This document shows, piece after piece, positions 33,731 through 36,700 of a stretch of DNA of 64,000 nt. The DNA comes from Prochilodus magdalenae (lineage: Eukaryota > Chordata > Actinopteri > Characiformes > Prochilodontidae). Within the stretch, counting starts at the first letter, position 1, and every line of letters begins with the position of its first letter. Below the pieces are notes generated by a model. That model was not told where the DNA came from, made no database searches, and was given only the letters and a program-made list of their open reading frames with translations. The position numbers and the translations under genes were made by a program. The DNA is taken from the NCBI GenBank assembly GCA_024036415.1, contig JAMWET010005076.1:197501-261500 (forward strand), in the 5' to 3' direction.

Positions 33731-36700
33731 CTGTAGAGAGGACACAGTTAATGACCAGAACTCACAACATGCATTAAATGGAGAGTACTCAGTCCAAACT
33801 GGGATGCACAAGGACACTGGAAAAATCTCTATCACATTGGAATCTGGAAGAGAAATTGACAGAAACCAAAACGATGAAAACGAATATAAAGGGTTTTGTC
33901 ATATATGAAACACTGGCTAAAATTCGGATCTACACTTTATTTAACGTGGCTATGTAATGCTGAGTGCACACAGATACATGTAAGGGTTTGGGTGCGCTTT
34001 TAAATTGGAAATGTCTACGTGTGATGCAGCATAATGCTACATGAAACAGACTGGCATGTTATAAATTTATTTAGGGCTGCATGCTTTCCAAACCACACAG
34101 CCCTTAACACATGAGCATATACAAGGAAAGATAAAGACATCCTCAGGTGTTAATGAGCAGCCATACTTCAGACAGAAACACTTCTGTTCTGTCTCTAATA
34201 AACACACATACACACGCATGCACACACCTGTGGTATTCCACACATCTTTATGACACTGCATGGTGTATGACTGTACTTTCTCTACCAAGGCAGAACACCT
34301 CTTATAGATATAAGCTCAGAGCTTTCTATGTAATTGTTTAGTTCTCTCGATTCCCATACCTCTGCTACAATTTAATCATTATCATGTTTTTCCATGTTAT
34401 TAATTTTCCTTTTCTACTAGCAACAGGTCATTAAATAACTCAGTCACTGAGTCTGTCACTTTTCATAAGGCTACTCAACTTACTGATAACACTGACATTT
34501 TGAAACTGTTTATTAGGCATCATTCGTCATAAAGGCTGCATTTTACAGCTTTGATCTTTTCTTGACCTTAGCTTGTGTCGGGACACTTGTAGACACCTTG
34601 AAATGACGGACTTTGTAGGTCAATGTACATCACTATGGTATAACGCTGAAACACAGAGCTTGTCAAGTAAGGCTGGCTGAAACAAAATGGGCAGTTTCTG
34701 ACCCTGAGGTAAACCAGGCTTCATTTGATTAGGCTGTAATATCAACAACATCATCATGTCACTGGGAAATACACTTAGCGTCAGCTGAAATGTCACTGTA
34801 TCCAGAAAAGTGTCAAACCAAGAGAACTAACTAACTAAATACATAAATAAACAAACACACAATGTCACCTGACATAAGGGTTGTCACCATAACATCAAAG
34901 CTGACAAAAGCATTCTTTATGACAAATGAAGTTGAGGATGTATATGTTTTAAACAGGTTTAAACAAATAAATCATCAATATTTTTCATGAAAACACAAAA
35001 CATCTACTTAATGGAGAAAATGTGTAGTGACAATTCTTAAGAACTGAAATGAGACTTTAGAAGACATATACTTCAAAATACAAGATCTACCTGCTCACCA
35101 TGAGGGACAGGGACGCAGTCCAAATACCTGCTGTTATACGCAGAGCTGTGGCTAAGATAAAGCTCCACCTACTGTATGTACTAAAAGTGCTTTGGTGGTG
35201 AGATGGAAATATGAGACAAAAATCTCAAACGTCTACAGATTTACCAAAAGACAAAGCAGCAAACACCCAATACATTATGATCTGTATAGCCTGTATTTAG
35301 CTAACTGCTAAAGTGATGAGGGAAACAGAAGGAATTCTTAAGACAGCGTTACCTTTCTTGGTGAAAAAGTCTTTGGAGTATTTTCCCGCCATCATGAGTT
35401 TGCGTGGGACCATCCCCAGCAGCTCAATGATCAAAGCAATGTGATCTGCCATTTTACACAGCAGCACAAGAGGGGGTTGTTGTGAAGGGGTTGAAGAGAA
35501 GGAGGAGGAAGGAGTGGACGAAACAAACGACAGATTGATCAAACACAGTTAATTCTCACATATCCACCCTGGGAGAGGAGGAGGAAGTCAGGAAAGAGTC
35601 TGCTCAACTCTGACAGCATTCAAACAACTGTCCACGATCTGGCTGCACCCATTCCTCTTTATTCTAACCCCCGACTACTGGCACCGGAGCAAATTCTAAA
35701 GCAAAGGTCAATAAGCCTGAAATACCAGTGTGCAGCTTTTGAGGTTATAAGGGCATTCAATTTCCACCTTCCTTTACAAATACCGCACTGCGAGAGTGCC
35801 TTTGTGTTTTTGCAGAGTGTGGCTGTAACCCATACAGAGGATCAGTACGTCCCTACTGCAGTGTCACTGGCTCTACAATGAGCTGACTAAAGTGCTGCAT
35901 TCACAATACATCCATTGAGGATTTCAGAATGCAGTACAGAAAGGATTTAGCAGGTTTCTGAATCCTGAAGAGTAACTAAAGTGTGTCCATGTTTGAGATG
36001 TGCTGTCAGAGAAGACCTGTAGACTTCTTTACACTTTCCCCTCGAGGCCCAGAGTGGAGTTTCGCCAGCACAGCGAGCATACCTGTCCGGCTGAAGTATT
36101 CCTGCGAGAATTTCCCACACAGAGCATAGTGACGAGGAATTCTACCCAACAGTTCAATGATGAGAGCAAGGTGGTCTGGAGGAAATGTCAGAGTGGGAGA
36201 GGAGGGGACAGGGGAAAGCAAAACAGAGGATGGATGCATAAAATAACAGAAGCAAGATGAGAAGCAATGAGCATGGACTTAAAAAGAGGGGAAAAAAAAC
36301 CCAAAAAGAAATAAAGATAGCTGGACAATGACGGCTCTAAACAATTAACAGGCCAGCGTCTTGCTCTCCCTAAAGAGAAAAACACTTCACACCTTTATCT
36401 GCTAATGACACATTCTCAGAGATCTACAAATTGACCCATGACAGCTGGGGGTGTAAAACTACCCATAGTTTGCTTTGATCTTTCCCACAGTGCTAAATTT
36501 AACATCCAGGTTTAAAAGATGTAGGTTAATAAAGCAACACGTGTAGGAGTTTCAAAACGAGAGGGGCATTACCCAGGAAAAAACATGTGCTATGCTTTCT
36601 CTCTCCTTGAGTTTTTTACCTCGGTGGACTCTTTACCGGTCACATTCAGTTGGATACATATCAAATATTATATGTATATGTATCAAATATTAACACATTC

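Follow-up and report, generated by a model that had tools for sequence, protein, structure and literature searches.

In the fish Prochilodus magdalenae, srpk1, which codes for a splicing kinase, has two homologous versions of one exon in tandem, 15A and 15B, which encode alternative forms of residues 564-594 (human numbering), and the same two versions stand in the same order in srpk2. We propose, with a probability of roughly 0.7, that the pair descends from an ancient tandem exon duplication predating the SRPK1/SRPK2 split, that the two exons are alternatives for these residues with one used per transcript, and that the choice was later partly divided between the genes. Seen from the side of the kinases, we find it probable, if a little less so, that what sets SRPK1 apart from SRPK2 next to the docking groove was at first a matter of alternative splicing in one ancestral SRPK gene, and that this fish keeps the switch in both genes.

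The exon 15 pair of srpk1 and what it changes

The window, that is the whole 64-kb stretch of DNA analysed, has the srpk1 gene on its minus strand, with our model extending from exon 3 (45181) to the stop (33546). Among SRPKs, the best match over the whole protein is SRPK1; isoform B scores 849.7 bits to human SRPK1 (PDB 6fad) vs 778.8 bits to SRPK2 (7zkx). Near 49958 on the minus strand there is an open stretch like the SRPK1 N-terminus, presumably an upstream coding exon. We also observe a possible further srpk1 exon at 45607-45565, which is uncertain. The 3’ part of the gene, with the exon pair, is arranged as follows.

38132..38201, minus strand: srpk1 exon 14, constitutive neighbour; human residues 541-563 including docking residue D548; donor GTAAAG
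36176..36277, minus strand: AG-free zone before 15A, 100 nt plus the acceptor AG; pyrimidine-rich tract
36083..36175, minus strand: srpk1 exon 15A, SRPK2-like residues 564-594; 93 nt, phase 1/1; nearest human exon that of SRPK2 (21/31)
35446..36082, minus strand: intron between 15A and 15B, 637 nt
35446..35554, minus strand: AG-free zone before 15B, 107 nt plus the acceptor AG; pyrimidine-poor acceptor (9/20)
35353..35445, minus strand: srpk1 exon 15B, SRPK1-like residues 564-594; 93 nt, phase 1/1; 27/31 to human SRPK1
33546..33730, minus strand: srpk1 exon 16, coding part up to the stop, with docking residue K615

A preliminary description of this DNA had reported two 93-nt exons in phase 1/1 with intact splice sites, no stops and 16 identical residues, and all of it is as described. 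Both exons have AG/GT borders and no in-frame stops, both are entered and left in phase 1, and they are identical at 16/31 residues and 56/93 nucleotides. As adjacent internal exons of equal length and phase that are homologous, open and flanked by GT-AG introns, they have the sequence properties of tandem homologous exons. A chance resemblance is ruled out by the alignment scores: the BLOSUM62 score of 15A against 15B is 96, while no other open AG-93 nt-GT stretch of the right phase exceeds 3 on either strand of the window, and the maximum over 30 simulated 64-kb sequences is 13. A same-phase scan (lengths within 30 nt) of the introns flanking 12 exons downstream of exon 3 finds no further duplicated srpk1 exons.

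The rest of the window includes two other sets of coding exons and several repeats. The two exons with a match to the Pfam family L_HMGIC_fpl we take to be LHFPL5, by synteny with SRPK1. A kinase exon at 56534-56460 on the minus strand, which has a weak side match (E 0.001), is presumably p38/MAPK14-like, and this fits the SRPK1-MAPK14 neighbourhood. Apart from this kinase exon, the features are these.

29490-31582, plus strand: two exons matching Pfam L_HMGIC_fpl
26390-27422, minus strand: disrupted transposase of the Tc1/Sleeping Beauty type, its DDE_3 and HTH_SB domains lying in two different frames
9019-9072, minus strand: UnaL2 LINE 3’ element (Rfam RF00436)
4557-5594: tandem array, 27-nt unit repeated 38.7 times
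9956-10452: tandem array, TAATAA repeated 82.8 times
16409-17361: tandem array, 21-nt unit repeated 46 times

Passages in PMC11211491 and PMC10878513 give four docking residues: D548, D564, E571 and K615 in human numbering. Alignments to PDB chains show that all four are kept in both isoforms, and they agree with the placement given in the preliminary description, with D548 in exon 14, D564 and E571 in both 15A and 15B, and K615 in exon 16. Helix G holds D564, A567 and E571 (stated in part of PMC11809128), and the docking groove is made of helix G and the MAPK-type helical insert (from a section of PMC2667211). The two exons differ at 15 residues, of which one is in 564-574 (I566L) and 14 are in 575-594, just after helix G, in what we infer to be part of the start of the MAPK-type insert. 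Since 14/15 differences are outside 564-574 and D564 and E571 are unchanged, the swap alters the surroundings of the groove and not its acidic contacts; the earlier wording, that the kinase swaps part of its docking surface, was too strong, as all but one residue of 564-574 stay the same.

The description of one version as SRPK1-like and the other as SRPK2-like stands. Exon 15B is identical to human SRPK1 at 27/31 residues, and 15A is identical to human SRPK2 at 21/31 and to human SRPK1 at 17/31. At the 12 positions that separate human SRPK1 from SRPK2, 15A has the SRPK2 residue five times and the SRPK1 residue once, and 15B has the SRPK1 residue nine times and the SRPK2 residue never. The solved human SRPK1 chains have type B and those of human SRPK2 have type A (PDB 6fad, 3beg, 7zkx, 2x7g and others). 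The product would be a kinase with either an SRPK1-like or an SRPK2-like module beside the docking groove, its acidic contacts kept. It is speculative that the swap would alter the preference for SR proteins, or act in feedback on SR-protein targets.

The same pair in srpk2 and the age of the duplication

We searched the P. magdalenae assembly (1.18 Gb, 7790 contigs) with the exon 16 protein and scored 28/28 candidates; this genome together with human and yeast PDB chains makes up the comparison set. Five SRPK loci matched exon 16, one in the window and the others on contigs C3639 (83% identical), C7588 (71%), C59 (63%) and C7275 (57%). By its flanks (exons 14 and 16), the C59 gene is srpk2, with 73/82 residues identical to human SRPK2 and 64/82 to SRPK1; for the window gene the counts are 62/82 to SRPK2 and 71/82 to SRPK1. 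The C7588 and C7275 genes are putatively SRPK3-like. The C3639 gene, with flanks 63/82 identical to SRPK2 and 68/82 to SRPK1, is taken as an srpk1 paralogue. The zebrafish genes srpk1a and srpk1b swap the role of main contributor during development (reported in a passage of PMC9304896).

In srpk2 there are also two copies of exon 15 between exons 14 and 16, A then B as in srpk1, and in the same phase.

C59 from 397206 (5206-5298 in excerpt L024): srpk2 exon A, AG/GT borders
C59 from 397676 (5676-5768 in excerpt L024): srpk2 exon B, AG/GT borders

Of the four other SRPK genes identified in the genome, one, srpk2, thus shares the conserved pair. The other three have a single exon 15, of type B only in C3639 and of type A only in C7588 and C7275, and their introns hold no remnants of the partner exon (best scores 18, 11 and 12, respectively, vs at least 116 for real exons). 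The presence of the same A-then-B pair in srpk2 makes it most likely that the duplication is older than the split between SRPK1 and SRPK2, unless the exons were exchanged. By the usual dating, that split took place about 500 million years ago.

The trees group the exons by type. In an exon tree of 10 sequences (seven fish exons, human SRPK1, human SRPK2 and yeast Sky1; 31 columns, LG+G4), A and B cluster across genes, and a topology constrained to the gene relationships loses 19.3 lnL units and is rejected (AU p 0.005, SH p 0.006). Support is moderate (SH-aLRT/bootstrap 88.6/88 for the B group, 76/48 for the A group vs B plus yeast), as it comes from 31 columns only, and the flank tree is weakly resolved too. 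Inside a gene, A and B differ at 15 (srpk1) and 12 (srpk2) residues, while exons of the same type differ between the genes at 10 and 8; the within-gene differences are larger than the same-type differences in 99.4% of 20,000 column bootstraps. The nonsynonymous divergence (dN) between A and B is 0.381 within srpk1 and 0.377 within srpk2, and 0.460 and 0.345 across the genes. For the same type across srpk1 and srpk2, dN is 0.172 (A-A) and 0.213 (B-B), with 0.187 in the flanking exons. Because the same-type values are about those of the flanks and the A-B values are higher, the same-type exons diverged at about the time of the gene split, whereas the divergence of A from B is clearly older. Synonymous divergence is at least 1.5 in 9 of the 15 computed pairs, and thus too saturated for dating.

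Two younger origins were considered within SRPK1. A recent fish-specific duplication is disfavoured both by the srpk2 pair and by exon trees built without the srpk2 exons: the AU p for a fish-only duplication is 0.018 in the exon test, and 0.024 in a five-sequence test with Sky1, where the SH value of 0.095 does not reject it. The best tree of the five-sequence test places the duplication on the stem of SRPK1, but an earlier origin is also compatible with the data (AU 0.306); a duplication restricted to that stem was given up once the srpk2 pair was found.

An exchange between the genes would also give this pattern. The pair would then have arisen in one gene, the other acquiring its missing partner afterwards through gene conversion or ectopic insertion, and would be younger than the SRPK1/SRPK2 split. 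That the best tree without the srpk2 exons placed the duplication in the SRPK1 stem speaks for such a history, and so does the similarity of the B exons, which have in common a 55-nt stretch at 85% identity (window 35391-35448) and a synonymous difference (pS) of 0.418 vs 0.70 in the flanking exons. We still regard an exchange as unlikely. Recent copying should have reduced synonymous and nonsynonymous change alike, so that the A-A and B-B dN, as high as in the flanks, count against it, and the order, the intron and the acceptor layout are the same in both genes. The low synonymous divergence of the B exons could come from exonic splicing signals or from gene conversion.

Splicing signals and the proposed choice of one exon

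Two ways of enforcing a single exon, neither of which every mutually exclusive pair needs, are ruled out for srpk1. Double inclusion, double skipping and both single forms all stay in frame, leaving no frame safeguard. No steric safeguard, as would come from a donor less than about 50 nt from the branch point, is present either, given the 637-nt intron and candidate branch sites at 38-104 nt before 15B; these are the branch-like pattern matches TTAAC, about 104 nt upstream, and TTCAC, about 38 nt upstream, both candidates only. As neither frame nor spacing bars the inclusion of both exons, regulated use of the 3’ splice sites would have to make the choice, and the use of one exon per transcript is what the sequence leads us to infer.

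The acceptors of the pair stand out by their AG-free zones. In srpk1, these zones are 100 nt (15A) and 107 nt (15B) long, vs 19-66 nt at the other 13 model acceptors; in srpk2 they are 163 nt (A) and 95 nt (B). We surveyed the acceptors of exons 4-8, 12-14, 15 and 16 of the five genes, dropping exon 12 of C7275 and C7588, which have no AG where expected. Zones of 95-163 nt precede the four paired exons, and the other 46 acceptors have a median of 33.5 nt (Mann-Whitney p 0.001), with 2/46 reaching 95 nt (104 and 176). In C3639, the zone is 176 nt at the constitutive exon 13 and 94 nt at the lone B-type exon 15, where it is perhaps a relic of the lost partner; both values tell against the simplest reading of long zones as a mark of paired exons. 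Exons with AG exclusion zones of at least 100 nt are more often alternatively spliced, with distant branch points predicted (part of PMC1431707); 15A, 15B and srpk2 A are of this length, and srpk2 B, at 95 nt, is just below the line. The unusually long zones of the paired exons may be a sign of regulated splicing.

The two types also differ in their acceptors. Of the 20 positions counted, 16 (srpk1) and 18 (srpk2) are pyrimidines before A, vs 9 and 10 before B; the exon 16 acceptor of C7275 is as pyrimidine-poor as that of 15B (9/20). About 150 nt of nearly pure pyrimidines are seen ahead of srpk2 exon A. Donor scores, with an approximate matrix, are 4.09 for 15A and 3.26 for 15B, and srpk2 A has a weak donor at -0.58. 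RNA pairing as the switch was rejected: folding of the 823 nt that span 15A and 15B is only slightly more stable than that of shuffled sequences (z -1.61, with 1/20 as good), and the inverted repeats are short or away from the exons. Counts of splicing-factor motifs, made without a control, gave nothing striking.

These signals bear on whether 15A is used at all. It could be a silent or decaying relic, with 15B alone in transcripts: its branch is the longest among the A-type exons (0.38; the next is C7275 with 0.32), the solved human SRPK1 chains are of type B, and the srpk1 paralogue C3639 lost its A exon without a trace. We hold this to be very improbable. Against srpk2 A, 15A has a dN of 0.172 with a dS of 1.52, close to the flanking exons, in agreement with the earlier judgement that both exons, being intact, are under selection. 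By the approximate matrix its donor (4.09 vs 3.26) is no worse than that of 15B, nor is its acceptor (16/20 vs 9/20 pyrimidines). When 20,000 copies of 15B were given 37 random changes each, 35% stayed open and 0.04% retained at least 16 identities.

The exons could also be two independent cassettes, with both, one or neither included and no exclusion between them, as the four in-frame combinations and a spacing that permits double inclusion would allow. The fold of the kinase makes this hard to believe: double skipping deletes the helix with D564 and E571, and double inclusion repeats a helix inside a folded domain. PMC5740500 argues, in the parts consulted, that such exons inside folded domains act as exclusive.

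Under an ancient duplication with a later division of the choice, the ancestral SRPK exon for residues 564-594, that is helix G and what follows, would have been duplicated in tandem, and the vertebrate gene duplications would have passed both exons on to srpk1 and srpk2. One of A and B would be chosen per transcript through regulated use of 3’ splice sites. Later, human SRPK1 would have settled on B and human SRPK2 on A, with the switch kept in both fish genes. The choice would then be partly divided, given type B in human SRPK1, type A in human SRPK2, only B in the fish srpk1 paralogue and only A in the two genes called SRPK3-like.

If this is true, a splicing kinase has been using splicing to set the surface it turns to its substrates for longer than SRPK1 and SRPK2 have been separate genes, and possibly since before the vertebrates. 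It would link a splicing regulator to the splicing-based regulation of its own substrate-facing region, and it offers a concrete example, open to testing, of gene copies that share out a former splicing choice, while two genes of a single living fish apparently retain the state before the division. A question of relevance to drugs also becomes testable, namely to what extent a 31-residue exon accounts for the differences between SRPK1 and SRPK2.

Relation to known exon pairs

The preliminary description knew of no such report for vertebrate SRPK1. This needs qualifying, as Hatje et al. 2017 (PMC5740500) names a cluster of mutually exclusive exons in the human gene, which mammals conserve except for a lineage-specific loss in Glires; the gene is the same, and the parts consulted leave the exons unnamed and have nothing on fish or on SRPK2. 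Conservation in mammals and loss in Glires fit an old pair with lineage losses, and the cluster agrees with a duplication older than the separation of fishes and tetrapods. If the pair predates the SRPK1/SRPK2 split, the human cluster is expected to be the A/B pair. The same paper, in the parts consulted, assigns 484 human clusters to mechanisms other than steric or frame safeguards. A splice-site mutation at D564, mentioned in a passage of PMC11809128, fits a human exon border at D564. The truncated SRPK1 transcript in the part of PMC12907903 consulted is different from the exon 15 pair, and among the matches listed in the open-licence literature, none mentions in its title or abstract these two exons or their presence in SRPK2 as well.

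The OGDH exons 4a and 4b (sections of PMC7969005) are, as in srpk1, paired vertebrate exons with long AG-free zones. The OGDH branch points are distant and so close to the donor upstream, at about 50 nt or less, that exclusion is enforced, whereas the farthest srpk1 candidate is more than 500 nt from the 15A donor. The nearest analogue is U2AF1, with exons 3 and Ab (Kralovicova and Vorechovsky 2016, PMC5224494, in part): a splicing-factor gene with duplicated homologous exons, one of which has better signals, where the choice is governed by the organisation of the branch point and the pyrimidine tract. The U2AF1 protein is unrelated, and for srpk1 the regulation is read from sequence. Among the human kinases themselves, SRPK1 has the counterpart of 15B and SRPK2 that of 15A; the fish has both in one gene, and again in srpk2. 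The srpk1 exons are a real and old pair, putatively alternative, of a known kind and probably already on a human list; a history common to two kinase genes is what was unexpected.
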